NCBI RefSeq assembly: GCF_004331345.1
Contig: NZ_SJJZ01000002.1
Span: 186,001 to 250,000 of the forward strand
Source of the DNA: Kribbella soli
GTDB taxonomy: Bacteria > Actinomycetota > Actinomycetes > Propionibacteriales > Kribbellaceae
Direction of reading: 5' to 3'
DNA: 64,000 nt
The notes beneath the pieces are model-generated. The model saw only the letters and a program-made list of their open reading frames with translations, was not told where the DNA came from and searched no databases. This document shows, one piece after another, positions 28,538 to 34,300 of the stretch. The position numbers were made by a program, and so were the translations under genes. How positions within the stretch are numbered: the stretch's first letter is position 1; each line of letters starts with the position of its first letter.

Positions 28538-30034
28538 CTATCCGCTCAGCGGGAGGTGGACGGTGAAGGTGGCGCCGTGGGGGTGGGTGTCCGTGGTGGT
28601 TACGTGGCCGTGGTGGGCGGCTACGAGGGCGGCGACTATGGAGAGGCCTAGGCCGGAGCCGCCGGTGGAGCGGGTTCGGGCGGTGTCCACTCGGTAGAAG
28701 CGTTCGAAGATGCGGGCCTTCTGTTCGTCGGTGAGGCCGGGGCCGGTGTCGCTGACTTCGAGGATGGCTTCGGAGCCGCGGGTGCCGACCGAAACGGTGA
28801 CGGGCGCGTCGACGGGGGTGTAGTGGAGGGCGTTGCTGACCAGGTTCCCGAGTACCTGCCGCAGACGTGCCTCGTCACCCGAGACGACTGGCGCCTCCGA
28901 ATCGGGCAGGATCGTCAGCGAGATATGGCGGTCGGGCTGCACGGCTTGCGCGTTGTGCAGTGCGTCGGCCGCGATCGGGAGCAGGTCGACGGACTCCGAG
29001 CGCAACGGACGCTGCTGGTCCAGTCGCGCGAGCAGCAACAGGTCGTCGACGAGCAGCCCCATCCGCTTGGCCTCGTCCTCGATCCGCCGCATCGTGTCGG
29101 CGTCGGTCACGTCACCCCGGTGCCGGGCCAGCTCCGCGAACCCCCGGATCGACGTCAACGGCGTACGCAGCTCGTGCGACGCGTCCGCCACGAAGCGCCG
29201 CATCCGGTCCTCGGACTGCCGAGCAGCCTCCTCCGACTGCTTCGCCGCATCCTCACTCCGCCGTGCCGCGAACTCCGACGCGGTGCGCTGCGCGAACGCG
29301 GTCTCGATCTGCCCGAGCATCTGGTTCAGCGCCAGCGACAACCGCCCGACCTCGGTCCGCGGGTCCCGCTGCGGTACCCGTCGACTCAGATCCCCACCGG
29401 CGATCGCGACCGCGGTGTGCTCGACATCCTCGAGCCCGCGCAGACTCCGCCGTACGACATAAGTCCCGAGGCCTGCCAGCAGCACCAGCAGGATCACCCC
29501 GGCCGCGGCCTGGATCCCGACGAGCCGCTGGATCGTGTGGTCCATGTCCTTGAGACTCTGCGCCACCATGACCGATCCGTCACCGTTGGCGTTCTCGACC
29601 GCAAGCACCCGCCACCGAGCACCACCGGAGACTGCATCCACCACGAACGGCCGCCCGTCGCGCGCACGGACCTGGTTGAGGTTCAGAACGGGCAGCTTCG
29701 GCAGCGGATCGGGATCGGCCAGCCGCGCACCGTACGCACCGTCGGCGCTACTCCCGTCCGCCTCGTTGAACTGCACGACGAAAGCACTCGGTAGCGGTCG
29801 GCGGTCCCCGAAGCCTCCCGGAGGCGGCGGACGCCGGTCCTTCCCGACGTGGGCGAGTTGCGAGGCCGTCTGCTGCAGCTGGTCGTCGACGCGGTCGATG
29901 AGGTAGCCGCGCATAATCGTGGTCGCCAGCACACCGGACGCGGCCAGCGCGAGCGCGACCAGCGCCAGCAGGACCACGACGATGGTGACGCGCAGCGGGT
30001 ACCGATCGGCGAACCGCCGGTGGTTCAGTTGCAT
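28538..30034 (-). CDS. Membrane sensor histidine kinase
   Basis: A 498-residue two-component sensor. TM1 is about 14-42, an extracytoplasmic region about 45-170 contains a Pro/Gly-rich stretch (DRRPPPPGGFGDRRPLP), TM2 is about 177-198, then HAMP. The linker before the H-box has a repeated RRSEDAAKQSEEAARQSED segment. The H-box is DASHELRTPLTSIRG (His about 287), and the ATPase boxes are LVSNALHYTP, EVSDTGPGL and GGSGLGLSIV. It shares one base with the regulator stop (TGATG at 30032-30036), so the pair is translationally coupled. Confidence 0.94.
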   Translation of the reverse strand: MQLNHRRFADRYPLRVTIVVVLLALVALALAASGVLATTIMRGYLIDRVDDQLQQTASQLAHVGKDRRPPPPGGFGDRRPLPSAFVVQFNEADGSSADGAYGARLADPDPLPKLPVLNLNQVRARDGRPFVVDAVSGGARWRVLAVENANGDGSVMVAQSLKDMDHTIQRLVGIQAAAGVILLVLLAGLGTYVVRRSLRGLEDVEHTAVAIAGGDLSRRVPQRDPRTEVGRLSLALNQMLGQIETAFAQRTASEFAARRSEDAAKQSEEAARQSEDRMRRFVADASHELRTPLTSIRGFAELARHRGDVTDADTMRRIEDEAKRMGLLVDDLLLLARLDQQRPLRSESVDLLPIAADALHNAQAVQPDRHISLTILPDSEAPVVSGDEARLRQVLGNLVSNALHYTPVDAPVTVSVGTRGSEAILEVSDTGPGLTDEQKARIFERFYRVDTARTRSTGGSGLGLSIVAALVAAHHGHVTTTDTHPHGATFTVHLPLSG

Positions 30035-30735
30035 CAGTTGGGGCCTCGCGGAGTACGCAGGACGTAGCCGACCCCGCGGACGGTGTGGAGCAGCTTCTGG
30101 TCGCCGGTGTCGACCTTACGGCGCAGGTAGGACATGTACGACTCGACCACGCCGGCGTCTCCGGCGAAGTCGTAGTTCCAGACCGCCGACAGGATCTGGC
30201 CCTTCGACATCACCCGCTCTGCGTTCTCCAGCAGGCACCGCAGCAGCTTGAATTCGGTCAGCGACAGCTGCACCGCCTGACCGGACTTGAAGACCTCGTA
30301 GCTGTCCTCGTTGAGTTCCAGGTCCGCATAGCGCAGTACGGCGGCCTCGGTCGTGGTCTGTTCGCGGTGACCGGAGCGGCGCAGCAGCGCGCGGACGCGG
30401 GCGACCAGCTCGTCGAGGCTGAACGGCTTGGTGACGTAGTCGTCGCCGCCGGTCTGCAGGCCGAGCACCTTGTCCTCGACCGCGTCCCGGGCGGTGAGGA
30501 ACAGCACCGGCACGTGCCGGTCCTCACCGCGCAACCGGCGTACGACCTCGAAACCGTCCAGTCCGGGCATCATCACGTCGAGCACGACCAGGTCCGGCTC
30601 CACGTCCCGCGCCTTGCGCAGCGCCTCGGCGCCGTGGGTCGCCGTGGTCACGTCGTACCCGGCGAAACGCAGACTCGCGGACAGGAGCTCGACGATGTTC
30701 GGCTCGTCGTCGACAACCAGCAGATGCGGACTCAT
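30034..30735 (-). CDS. OmpR-family response regulator
   Basis: A 233-residue regulator: receiver domain about 3-118 with VVDDEPN, phospho-acceptor Asp 53 in VVLDVMMPG, and Lys in VTKPFSLDELV; winged helix about 135-228 with LSLTEFKLLRCLLENAERVM and ESYMSYLRRKVD. ATG 30735 matches the family N-terminus (MSPHLLVVDDE). A 15-bp motif (CCTGGCAATCGCCTG at 30779-30793) upstream resembles motifs upstream of the DUF5666-like gene, suggesting autoregulation and a shared target. Confidence 0.95.
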   Translation of the reverse strand: MSPHLLVVDDEPNIVELLSASLRFAGYDVTTATHGAEALRKARDVEPDLVVLDVMMPGLDGFEVVRRLRGEDRHVPVLFLTARDAVEDKVLGLQTGGDDYVTKPFSLDELVARVRALLRRSGHREQTTTEAAVLRYADLELNEDSYEVFKSGQAVQLSLTEFKLLRCLLENAERVMSKGQILSAVWNYDFAGDAGVVESYMSYLRRKVDTGDQKLLHTVRGVGYVLRTPRGPN

Positions 30736-30778
30736 GGTCTCAGTGTGCAGGTGATTCCCATGTGAACCCTGGAAGGTT

Positions 30779-30793
30779 CCTGGCAATCGCCTG
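30779..30793 (-). promoter_or_regulatory. Shared motif upstream of the response regulator
   Basis: On the coding strand this reads CAGGCGATTGCCAGG, 44 bp before the regulator start. A near copy, CAGGTGATTGCCGGG, lies at 31466-31480 before the DUF5666-like gene, and ATTGCCAGG at 31732-31740 before the 18-codon ORF. It is a candidate binding site for the response regulator or part of a shared promoter. Confidence 0.45.
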
Positions 30794-30819
30794 TGAGTCG
30801 TCCGCGATCCCGAGCAGGC

Positions 30820-31362
30820 TCAGCGTGGACCGTGCTTGAACCCCCACTTCTGGCCGGCCGCGTCGCGGACGGTTCCGTCGTTCACCGAGCTGGCGGTCGC
30901 CTTGCCGTCGGTGACCACGGCCGTCACGGTCACGGTGTTCCCGGTTTTCACGTCGTCGATGCCGTCGCGGGCCGCGTTCACCAACGTGTCCTCGGTCAGC
31001 GTGTAGGTCCGGCTGTATCCGTCCGCGCTCTTCACGGTGATCGATTCCTTGCTGACCGCGGTGACCTCGCCGCGCTGGGTCGCGACGGTCTGGTACCCGC
31101 CGCCGTCCTTCGGTACGACGAATTCGCCGTGCAGCGCCCCGCCGAGCCCGAACTCGCCCCGCGGCCCGAATCCGCCCTTGCCCGGTCCACCAGGTTCCCC
31201 CGGCTTCTGCTGGCCCGGCGTCGACGGGCTCGAGGGGGAGGCCGACGGCGACGGCGTCGGGTCCGCGTTGCTCGTCGCCCAGGCGACCCCGCCGGCCGTG
31301 GTCGTCACGGCCACGGCGGCCACAGTGCCGAGCAGCCGCCATCGCTTCTGTGAGAGCTTCAT
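30820..31362 (-). CDS. Secreted DUF5666-like protein
   Basis: A 180-residue exported protein. The signal peptide is about 1-31 (KRWRLLGTVAAVAVTTTAGG). A Pro/Ser/Gly-rich linker follows (about 34-70), then a small beta domain (about 85-165: QRGEVTAVSKESITVKSADG, GNTVTVTAVVTDGKATA) like the DUF5666/OB-type domains of unknown role. A GGAAGG ribosome site stands 9 bp before ATG 31362. It lies 84 bp upstream of the two-component genes and shares a promoter motif with them, so it may be their target or an accessory sensor. Confidence 0.78.
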   Translation of the reverse strand: MKLSQKRWRLLGTVAAVAVTTTAGGVAWATSNADPTPSPSASPSSPSTPGQQKPGEPGGPGKGGFGPRGEFGLGGALHGEFVVPKDGGGYQTVATQRGEVTAVSKESITVKSADGYSRTYTLTEDTLVNAARDGIDDVKTGNTVTVTAVVTDGKATASSVNDGTVRDAAGQKWGFKHGPR

Positions 31363-31480
31363 CCTGCTGTGCCTTCCGTACTGCGTGCCGGGACGTCACC
31401 CGGCACTGTTCCCTCTCACGGTGGCGTGCAGAGCTTGGACGAACCTCCGCTGCGGATAAGAACAGCCCGGCAATCACCTG
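31363..31480 (-). promoter_or_regulatory. Duplicated leader, copy 1 (DUF5666-like gene)
   Basis: Counted from the gene outward: GGAAGG ribosome site, a perfect 8-bp hairpin GTGCCGGG/CCCGGCAC (31385-31392 and 31399-31406, 6-nt loop), a conserved block containing CGTCCAAG and GCGGAGG, and the ATTGCC motif at 31466-31480. The same order recurs at 31633-31740. Confidence 0.6.
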
Positions 31481-31520
31481 AGAAACGGTGGCGGGCGACG
31501 ATCCGTCCCGCCGCCTGACC

Positions 31521-31563
31521 TCTGAGGGGTCAACCCCCTACTCTCCGGGGTCGACCCCTCAGA
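31521..31563. terminator. Strong hairpin downstream of the 18-codon ORF
   Basis: Arms of 17 nt, TCTGAGGGGTCAACCCC (31521-31537) and GGGGTCGACCCCTCAGA (31547-31563), pair with one mismatch around a 9-nt loop. It lies 12 bp after the stop of the 18-codon ORF on the minus strand and before the promoter of the DUF5666-like gene, so it can act as a terminator or attenuator. Confidence 0.65.
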
Positions 31564-31575
31564 AGTTGCCGTCGA

Positions 31576-31632
31576 CTACTTCGTCGGCGTGGTGCTCGGC
31601 TGCTGGCCGTTGGGCTTCTGATGCAACGCCAT
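31576..31632 (-). CDS. 18-codon ORF behind a duplicated leader
   Basis: Encodes MALHQKPNGQQPSTTPTK, then TAG. Its ATG is preceded by the same GGAAGG site and hairpin leader as the DUF5666-like gene, at the same spacing. The Pro/Thr/Gln composition recalls the linker of that protein, so it may be a decayed copy, a leader peptide, or a translated stub of a small RNA. Expression is not shown by sequence alone. Confidence 0.35.
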   Translation of the reverse strand: MALHQKPNGQQPSTTPTK

Positions 31633-31740
31633 ACTGCAGTGCCTTCCGTTGCGTGCCGGGAGATGCCCGGCACTGGTCATTCCACCGTTCGTGGCAGACC
31701 TTGGACGGCCCTCCGCCGGGACTGGAAAGTCCCTGGCAAT
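31633..31740 (-). promoter_or_regulatory. Duplicated leader, copy 2
   Basis: Paralogue of the leader at 31363-31480. It has the hairpin GTGCCGGG/CCCGGCAC (31653-31660 and 31666-31673, 5-nt loop), the GTGCCTTCCG block at 31639-31648, the CTTGGACG block, and ATTGCCAGGGACTTTCCAG, which matches the response-regulator upstream region at 17 of 19 positions. Confidence 0.55.
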
Positions 31741-31759
31741 TCAGACAGCTTCAGACAGC

Positions 31760-32245
31760 TCAGACGATGAACAGCACTGCAGAGAGCCAGACGGCGGCGG
31801 CGAGCGAGGTGCCGACGAGCTCGATCAGGATGGAGACGCCGGTCTGGCGCAGCGCGTGCTTGGTCGAGGTCCACGCCGCGGCGTGGTCGCGCTGGCGCTG
31901 CAACTCGGACAGGTAGACGCCGATCGGGAAACCGACGAACATCCCGACCACCGGGATGACGAAGAACCCGACGATGCCGAGCAGGACCCCGACGATCATC
32001 GACCGCCGCGGTACGCCGGCCTCACGGAGCCGCCGCTCCGGTACGACGTACTTCACCACCTGACTCGCACCGATCAGGACCACCGCGATCGCGAACACCA
32101 CCCACCCGATCGCGCTGCGCTCGACGATCGCCCAGACCAGGATCGCGGCCAGACTGAGGATCGCCCCGGGCAGGATCGGTACGACGATGCCCACGATCCC
32201 GACGAAGATCGCGATCCCGACCAGTACGGTCACCCCTGTCTCCAT
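31760..32245 (-). CDS. DUF456-family membrane protein
   Basis: A 161-residue hydrophobic protein beginning METGVTVLVGIAIFVGIVGI. It has four to five membrane helices (about 5-45, 48-70, 88-115, 135-160), Gly-rich turns (PILPGAILSLAAIL), and a basic loop VPERRLREAGVPRRS, as in the DUF456 family of unknown function. ATG 32245 is chosen since the frame above it is antisense to the debranching enzyme. It is divergent from that gene, with a 42-bp gap. Confidence 0.82.
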   Translation of the reverse strand: METGVTVLVGIAIFVGIVGIVVPILPGAILSLAAILVWAIVERSAIGWVVFAIAVVLIGASQVVKYVVPERRLREAGVPRRSMIVGVLLGIVGFFVIPVVGMFVGFPIGVYLSELQRQRDHAAAWTSTKHALRQTGVSILIELVGTSLAAAVWLSAVLFIV

Positions 32246-32287
32246 ACCCACACTCTCTCGCACCGACCGACCTTTTAGGGTGGAGAC

Positions 32288-34300
32288 ATGTCCCCTTTGC
32301 ACGAACTCGTCACCGCCCTTGCCGCTCCCTGGGTGGTCCTGTCGCCTCGGTCCGGTCAGCTGACCGGTTCCGGCGCCGAGGGCGTGTACGCCCGGGACCG
32401 CCGGATCCTGTCCCGGCTGAGCGTGACGGTCGACGGACGCGAACCGTTCCCGGTGCATGTCGACGAGCCGGACGCGGCCACCCATCAGTACGTCGCGATG
32501 GTCGAGGGACTCGGCGACACCCGGCACGACCCCACCGTCATGCTGTACCGGACCCGGACCGTCGACTCCGAAGGCCTCACCGAGCGGATCACCCTCGTGA
32601 ACCGTTCCCGGTCGGCAATCGAATGCCGGCTGGATGTTGCCCTCGGCACCGACCTCGCCGGCACGGCCGCGGTCCGCAGTGGCGCCGCCGCCAGTCTGCC
32701 GGAGCTCGCGCCGCTGCCGGACGGTCCCGGTCGCACACGCTGGGAGAGGGACGACACCCGCGTCGTCGTCACCGCCGACCCCGGCGTCTCGGCCACGCCG
32801 CGTGTCGAGCCGGGGGAGGAGTTCACCGTCACCGTGCGGGTGACGGCTGAGTTCCCGAAGTCGAACACCGGCTTCTCGATCGAGCCGCCGGCCGAGCGCA
32901 CGCCGTACGACGTCACTGTTCGCTGTGACGACAAACGCGTCGAACGCTGGCTGAACCGTTCGCTCGAGGACGTCCGCGCGCTCCAGCTCGCCGCGGACGA
33001 CGACCGCTATCTCGGCGCCGGTCCGCCGTGGTACCTCACGCTCTTCGGCCGCGACTCGCTGATCTCGTCGGGCATGCTGATCCCCGTCGACCCCACGCTC
33101 GCCGCCGGCACGCTGCGGGCGCTGGCCGCCCGGCAGGGCACGAAGGTCGACGCCGGGTCGGCCGAACAGCCGGGCAAGATCCCGCACGAGCTACGCGCCG
33201 AGGTCGCCGATCACGGCGGCGGCCTGGTCCTCCCGGCCGTGTACTACGGCACCCACGACGCGACCCAGCTGTGGATCGTCACGCTGCACAAGGCGTGGCG
33301 CTGGGGCATGCCGGCCGACGAGGTCCGCGACCTGCTTCCGAACCTGAAGCGCGCCCTCACCTGGATGAAGGAGTACGCCGACCCGGACGGCGACGGCTTC
33401 CTCGAGTACGTCGACGAGTCGGGCCACGGACTGGCGAACCAGGGCTGGAAGGACTCCAACGACGCGGTGCAGTGGCCGGACGGGACGCTGGCGACGGCGC
33501 CGATCGCGCTGTGCGAGGTGCAGGGATACGCGTACGCCGCTGCCGTGAAGGGCGCCGAACTGCTCGAGGCGTACGGCGAGTCCGGCGACGAGTGGCGTGC
33601 CTGGGCGGCCGCGCTGCAGGAACGCTTCCGCGCCGCGTTCTGGGTCGACGGCTACCCGGCGATCGCGCTCGACGGCGCGAAGAACCCGGTCGCCGGCCGT
33701 GCCTCGAACATGGGCCATCTGCTCGGCACGGGGCTGCTCGACGCGGACGAGGAGCAGACGGTCGCCGACGTGCTCGCCGGCGAGGACCTGAACAGTGGCT
33801 TCGGGCTGCGAACGATGTCCACCGCGATGACCCGCTTCAACCCCCTCGGTTACCACACCGGCAGCGTCTGGCCGCACGACACCGCGATGACGGTCCAAGG
33901 CCTGTTCGCGAGCGGTCAGTCCGACGTCGCGTCGTCGTACGTCGAGGGCCTGGTCCGCGCGGCGGAGGCCTTCGACTACCGCCTGCCGGAGTTGTACGGC
34001 GGCCGCGGGACGAGCGCGGAGAGTACGCCGACGCCGTACCCGCTCTCGTGCCGCCCGCAGGCGTGGGCAGCGGCCTCGGCGGTCGCCGTTCTGGTCGCCG
34101 CGTTCGGCATCGAGCCCGACGTACCCGGCGGCACGCTGACGATCCATCCCGCTGACTCGGTGCCCTGGCAGGTGCTCGAACTCGACGGGGTGCGGGTCGG
34201 CGGCGAGACGTTGTCGCTGCGGTTCGAGAACGGCTCAGTAGTGATCGTGGAAGCCCCTCAAAGTGCTGTGATCAGCGCGAACGCGGACAGTCCGAGGTAG
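32288..34300 (+). CDS. Glycogen-debranching-type protein (six-hairpin glycosidase)
   Basis: A 670-residue protein with an N-terminal beta domain (about 10-215, glycogen debranching enzyme N-terminal type, starting GQLTGSGAEGVYARDRR) and an alpha/alpha six-hairpin domain (about 225-600) with LFGRDSLISSGML, GKIPHELR, NQGWKDSNDA and GYHTGSVWPHDTAM. Related proteins act as amylo-alpha-1,6-glucosidases or on other alpha-glucans or trehalose-like substrates. There is no signal peptide, so it is cytosolic. The 3' end overlaps the convergent LysE gene by 43 bp. Confidence 0.88.
   Translation: MSPLHELVTALAAPWVVLSPRSGQLTGSGAEGVYARDRRILSRLSVTVDGREPFPVHVDEPDAATHQYVAMVEGLGDTRHDPTVMLYRTRTVDSEGLTERITLVNRSRSAIECRLDVALGTDLAGTAAVRSGAAASLPELAPLPDGPGRTRWERDDTRVVVTADPGVSATPRVEPGEEFTVTVRVTAEFPKSNTGFSIEPPAERTPYDVTVRCDDKRVERWLNRSLEDVRALQLAADDDRYLGAGPPWYLTLFGRDSLISSGMLIPVDPTLAAGTLRALAARQGTKVDAGSAEQPGKIPHELRAEVADHGGGLVLPAVYYGTHDATQLWIVTLHKAWRWGMPADEVRDLLPNLKRALTWMKEYADPDGDGFLEYVDESGHGLANQGWKDSNDAVQWPDGTLATAPIALCEVQGYAYAAAVKGAELLEAYGESGDEWRAWAAALQERFRAAFWVDGYPAIALDGAKNPVAGRASNMGHLLGTGLLDADEEQTVADVLAGEDLNSGFGLRTMSTAMTRFNPLGYHTGSVWPHDTAMTVQGLFASGQSDVASSYVEGLVRAAEAFDYRLPELYGGRGTSAESTPTPYPLSCRPQAWAAASAVAVLVAAFGIEPDVPGGTLTIHPADSVPWQVLELDGVRVGGETLSLRFENGSVVIVEAPQSAVISANADSPR

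Follow-up and report, generated by a model that had tools for sequence, protein, structure and literature searches.

Within the 64,000-nucleotide stretch of Kribbella soli DNA analyzed here (the window), a group of minus-strand genes encodes a secreted protein and a PhoP-like two-component system downstream of a DUF456 membrane protein (31760–32245), which provides a syntenic anchor. The secreted DUF5666-like protein (180 amino acids; 30820–31362, ATG at 31362) is preceded by a leader (copy 1; 31363–31475) that contains an array of short boxes, the −10-like hexamer CACCGT, an 8-bp hairpin, and GGAAGG. Farther upstream lies a second leader (copy 2; 31633–31740), in which boxes including ATTGCCAGG and CTTTCCAG are followed by the −10-like hexamer AACGGT, an 8-bp hairpin, GGAAGG, and an ATG. 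This ATG opens an ORF of 18 codons (31576–31632; translation MALHQKPNGQQPSTTPTK, ending at a TAG stop), and a 20-bp stem-loop (31518–31566) follows on its 3′ side.

Downstream of the secreted-protein gene is a response regulator gene (30034–30735), followed by a sensor histidine kinase gene (28538–30034; HAMP, HisKA, and HATPase domains). The regulator contains receiver and winged-helix output domains (Response_reg and Trans_reg_C), and its best solved match is Mycobacterium tuberculosis PhoP (300 bits). In a comparison with NCBI curated families, none reached the cut-off among the best 25 of 103 matches for the regulator or the best 25 of 86 for the kinase. The ORF list gave a TTG at 30786 as the regulator's start codon. 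The regulator promoter region (30736–30796) contains the box array TCACAGG-N4-TGCCAGG-N4-TTCCAGG and the −10-like hexamer CACACT, 6 nt before the ATG at 30735; because the array and hexamer cross the interval 30736–30786, this TTG is unlikely to be the start and the ATG probably is. In two other Kribbella genomes (G001 and G040), roughly 80 nt similar to GAGCGAGCGAAGCGAG have been inserted just upstream of the regulator ATG, ahead of the ATGAGCCCGCAT start; the insertion resembles a short dispersed repeat.

A sequence-only reading of the window had claimed that a leader with a set of named sequence blocks occurs twice, and this is borne out by alignment. The copies are 108 nt (copy 2) and 113 nt (copy 1) long, both on the minus strand, and can be aligned from an ATTGCC motif to the ATG with the named blocks in place. 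Their description as tandem is right in that two copies are present, but they are not directly adjacent, with about 270 bp from start to start. When the copy-2 leader was searched by BLAST against its own 8.8-Mb genome, copy 1 was recovered at E 2.7e-10 (80% identity over query letters 30–112 of 113) and the next match reached only E 0.01; the pair is therefore not a chance resemblance. This whole-genome search brought up no third copy of similar quality. The same reading had correctly placed copy 1 before the secreted-protein gene and copy 2 before the 18-codon ORF and a hairpin, although this hairpin, described there as 17 bp, has 20 pairs when G-U pairs are included.

We compared the locus across 38 Kribbella genomes, that of the window (G000) included. 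In all 38, the DUF456 gene is followed downstream by a secreted-protein gene, and the order DUF456 gene, DUF5666-like gene, response regulator, and histidine kinase is observed in 37; the 38th locus (G015) stops at a contig edge, with its DUF5666-like gene split over contigs. In one further genome (G047), the single DUF5666-like gene is read in two frames (query residues 1–27 and 28–171), owing to a frameshift or to an error in sequencing. Upstream of the first DUF5666-like gene, the window has a gap of 400 bp, compared with 65–182 bp in the other 37 genomes. An intact second gene was identified in one genome, the close relative G012, and a joined remnant in one, that of the window. The remaining 36 genomes are single-copy and lack the copy-2 unit, one of them (G048) carrying part of leader 2.

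Comparison with G012 accounts for the short ORF. This relative encodes, in the same order as the window, leader 2, a full 189-codon paralogue, the hairpin, leader 1, and the copy-1 gene. The paralogue, which shares 59% identity with the copy-1 type of protein, begins with MALHQK and ends with PNGQQPSATPSTK, and the product of the 18-codon ORF reads MALHQK-PNGQQPSTTPTK. When the ORF is aligned to the two ends of the G012 gene, 54 of 57 aligned letters are equal; of the two gaps, one falls at the junction and the other spans 3 letters. The net loss in the window relative to G012 is 513 nt, a multiple of three. Judged from this alignment, the 18-codon ORF of the G000 assembly consists of the first six and last twelve codons of a secreted-protein gene, joined by an in-frame deletion of the middle. 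The short run AAGC is common to both ends at the junction, making a deletion between short repeats plausible. One option raised by the sequence-only reading, that copy 2 is the relic of a duplicated gene together with its control region, is thus supported by the intact homologue that G012 carries in the same syntenic position.

Its other options fared less well. A regulated small peptide is argued against by the long gap peculiar to the window and by the ORF itself, the letters of which are the ends of a lost gene. The joined 18-codon ORF was not found in any other Kribbella genome among the 38 searched, while a homologue of the copy-1 protein is present in all 38. A leader peptide with an attenuator controlling the copy-1 gene would be consistent with the arrangement of a short ORF and then a strong hairpin ahead of a gene. 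The same hairpin, however, stands 3′ of a complete gene in G012, the ORF lacks a run of any one kind of codon, copy 1 comes with a box array and −10-like hexamer of its own, and the unit is missing from the 36 single-copy genomes, part of leader 2 in G048 aside. We consider this attenuator scarcely credible.

The hairpin downstream of the relic ORF instead seems to belong to the lost gene. It folds at −41.5 kcal/mol, compared with −22.3 kcal/mol for shuffled sequences (z −7.0), and the corresponding region differs between the window and G012 at 12 of 102 sites, plus gaps. Its stem is strong but lacks a T-run, and a terminator scan of 31350–31770 called no intrinsic terminator. We also considered that the hairpin might be a genome repeat and rejected this, as a near-exact pattern of it occurs only once in its own genome. 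Looser DNA matches are present in several Kribbella genomes. Given its location, the hairpin is probably the transcript end of the lost gene.

Sequence divergence between the window and G012 bears on whether copy 2 is still under selection. Leader 2 shows 2 differences in 108 sites (106 identical) and leader 1 shows 8 in 113 (105 identical), while the neighboring genes have a dS of 0.12–0.32. Two or fewer changes in 108 sites have a probability of 0.0002 at an assumed neutral change of 11.5% and of 0.007 at 8%. Constraint on leader 2 presumably acted in both lineages up to the loss of the gene, and has acted in G012 ever since, so the identity of leader 2 does not prove present selection and would fit recent gene loss and continued constraint equally well.

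This divergence pattern is also an argument for copy 2 having been kept as a functional unit, whether as a regulator-driven small RNA, as an 18-residue peptide, or as boxes that titrate the response regulator or aid the copy-1 promoter. Leader 2 has indeed changed less than leader 1 or synonymous sites, and the leader 2 stub of G048 likewise leaves boxes beside the copy-1 promoter. Against this, recent loss of a gene whose leader had been under selection yields the same identity figure, an in-frame loss has a one in three chance of arising without selection, the joined ORF occurs in a single genome of 38, and G048 lacks the copy-2 −10-like hexamer, hairpin, and ORF. On balance, retained function is improbable. 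A more specific possibility is that the copy-2 unit, as a promoter with a hairpin at the 5′ end and another at the 3′ end, yields a short stable RNA that is controlled by the PhoP-like regulator, derives from the collapsed gene, and titrates the regulator or feeds back on the cluster; this strikes us as somewhat more doubtful still. We continue to favor the relic, for which no special function of the ORF or the 3′ hairpin has to be assumed.

The distribution of second-copy sequences provides a view of how the relic might have arisen. In a species tree of 37 of the 38 genomes (G015 was left out, the regulator being absent from its piece), G000, G048, G012, G005, and G017 group together in a supported clade. 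At the single-copy locus of G048, the opening 59 nt of leader 2, at 85% identity, run straight into the copy-1 region, and the copy-2 −10-like hexamer, leader hairpin, ATG, ORF, and 3′ hairpin are all missing, an arrangement that suggests a separate deletion. The simplest account would be a single duplicate in this clade of five followed by at least two separate losses, with the ancestral two-copy state resting on the intact second gene of G012 (one genome of 38) and the G048 stub. Conversely, G048 could have gained only a piece of leader instead of losing the gene.

A TGCCAGG/TTCCAGG stub before the copy-1 boxes of G005 was considered as a third loss and set aside because it resembles the regulator promoter as much as leader 2. 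In protein trees, from which G015 (contig edge) and G047 (two frames) were left out, the G012 paralogue forms a long branch, and none of three placements is rejected: with the clade of five (AU p 0.26), with 16 MKLS-starting copy-1 proteins (AU p 0.42), or as an outgroup to all the other Kribbella copies (AU p 0.46). A scan of genome contigs with the paralogue returned five loci, namely single copies in Kribbella pratensis and K. antiqua and three weaker matches in other bacteria.

We found the leaders to share an architecture that extends across the genus. Within the 38 upstream gaps, a T[GTC][CT][CTA]AG box motif recurs at spacings of 11, 22, and 33 bp (41, 33, and 33 pairs, respectively), compared with at most 0.09 pairs at each spacing in shuffled gaps; the motif was picked after viewing the sequences, the rows are related, and the G000 gap includes both leaders while the G012 gap includes only leader 2. 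The same motif accounts for 32 pairs at 11-bp spacing in the regulator promoters, where TCACAGS-N4-TGCCAGG-N4-TTCCAGG is exact in 21 of 37 and present as variants in some others. We also asked whether a corrected two-box pattern would point to a wider regulon, but its 2 sites in the window's genome (the regulator promoter and one elsewhere) versus 4 in the reversed control make this search uninformative.

On the 3′ side of the boxes, both leaders of the window contain a −10-like hexamer with an A at position 2 and a T at position 6; a consensus scan of 31350–31770 called no sigma-70-like promoter. In most species, the segment between hexamer and ATG contains the 8-bp hairpin and GGAAGG or GGGAGG. 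Taken as a whole, the leader looks like a promoter plus a 5′ UTR.

Several observations address the 8-bp leader hairpin. Standard pairs occupy 237 of 248 cells in an alignment of 32 of the 40 leaders (31 distinct rows), which leaves out six genomes without the hairpin (G003, G015, G019, G022, G045, and G049), one with a shorter form (G013), and one with a different hairpin (G051). Double changes are observed between UA and CG and, at two further pairs, between GC and AU, each in several rows, as well as between GC and UG in one row. The alifold score is −14.6, versus −1.1 (sd 1.2) for shuffled columns, though whole-column shuffling makes for a weak control and the rows are related to one another. 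This score and the maintenance of pairing through double changes argue that the hairpin is probably a real structure near the mRNA 5′ end. By energy alone, the two leader hairpins of the window are unexceptional (z −2.2 and −1.8), and none of the 12 Rfam matches obtained up to E 10 for 30700–32300 reached its gathering score.

The six genomes without the hairpin lack the whole segment and place the −10-like hexamer 6–7 nt before the ATG. In three of these (G049, G019, and G045), the distance is 6 nt, as at the regulator gene of the window. A −10-like hexamer this close to the start codon suggests that the message of this gene is leaderless in these species, where that of their relatives would have a structured 5′ UTR. 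Five of the six could be placed on the species tree, where they fall at three places. Beyond Kribbella, CAG-containing boxes lie upstream of DUF5666-like homologues at three loci (L161, L162, and L165) in other genera of the order. At L162, a hairpin-like segment precedes the ribosome-binding site, and at another locus (L173) a DUF5666-like homologue adjoins a response regulator/histidine kinase pair.

The explanation that best unites these findings, and which we hold with high confidence as a whole, is a second gene collapsed to a relic beside a cluster with putative regulator-bound boxes and probable autoregulation. The ancestor of a small Kribbella clade would have possessed a second secreted DUF5666-like gene upstream of the copy-1 gene, as G012 and the G048 stub indicate, with its own promoter, 5′ UTR, and 3′ hairpin, beside the PhoP-type two-component cluster. 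The comparison with G012 shows that the species of the window lost the middle of this gene in frame through a deletion of roughly 0.5 kb, which left the promoter and leader, both gene ends, and the 3′ hairpin. The 11-bp-phased boxes, those of the two leaders as well as those preceding the regulator's own gene, are most likely binding sites of the response regulator, and binding ahead of its own gene would render the cluster autoregulated. Transcription probably starts just 3′ of the −10-like hexamer, which would place the 8-bp hairpin near the mRNA 5′ end; in this position, the hairpin may protect the message or modulate translation. Copy 2 may still yield a short transcript that ends at the 3′ hairpin, without a function of its own.

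A practical consequence is that the 18-codon ORF should not be annotated as a small protein. Beyond annotation, the relic carries little weight and represents ordinary gene-loss biology. The comparison that identified it additionally pictures a PhoP-like, probably autoregulated Kribbella cluster with box arrays, a covarying 5′ hairpin, and a secreted product. The genus-wide leader is a modest extra, and the contrast between species that have the hairpin leader and those in which the same gene is seemingly leaderless could be used to study the role of a 5′-end hairpin.

How these elements compare to known systems differs from one to the next. The DUF5666-like label, which originates with the sequence-only reading, applies loosely: residues 94–155 of the G012 paralogue resemble DUF5666 (Pfam accession PF18914) at E 8.7e-6, but their 26.4 bits fall below the cut-off of 27, and for the copy-1 protein, no Pfam family passes its cut-off and DUF5666 is not matched at E 1. 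Neither DUF5666-like protein has a match up to E 0.001 among NCBI curated families. The literature consulted on DUF5666 (including the portion of PMC12455991 covered) and on two-component or PhoP systems in Kribbella contained nothing on this cluster.

For the regulator, the point of comparison is M. tuberculosis PhoP, which, according to the portion of the source consulted, binds 7-bp direct repeats of TCACAGC and requires a 4-bp spacer between them (PMC4832192). The Kribbella boxes conform to this PhoP-type rule (PMC4832192): they are direct repeats of 7 bp set 4 bp apart, and they recur at 11, 22, and 33 bp. They differ in that most leader boxes read TGCCAGS, TTCCAGG, or TCTYAGC rather than TCACAGC, with binding being a prediction from sequence. 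The resemblance extends to the 11-bp motif period in the window's cluster, to the TCACAGS box found in most Kribbella regulator promoters, and to the regulator itself, whose closest solved relative is PhoP.

The copy-2 unit can be compared to a general class of gene remnants, those that deletions leave behind once a gene has been duplicated. The remnant in the window differs in remaining in frame with a start codon, a ribosome-binding site, and a stop codon. In other respects the likeness is close, as the flanks, promoter, both gene ends, and 3′ hairpin are still in order and an intact copy is present in a close relative.
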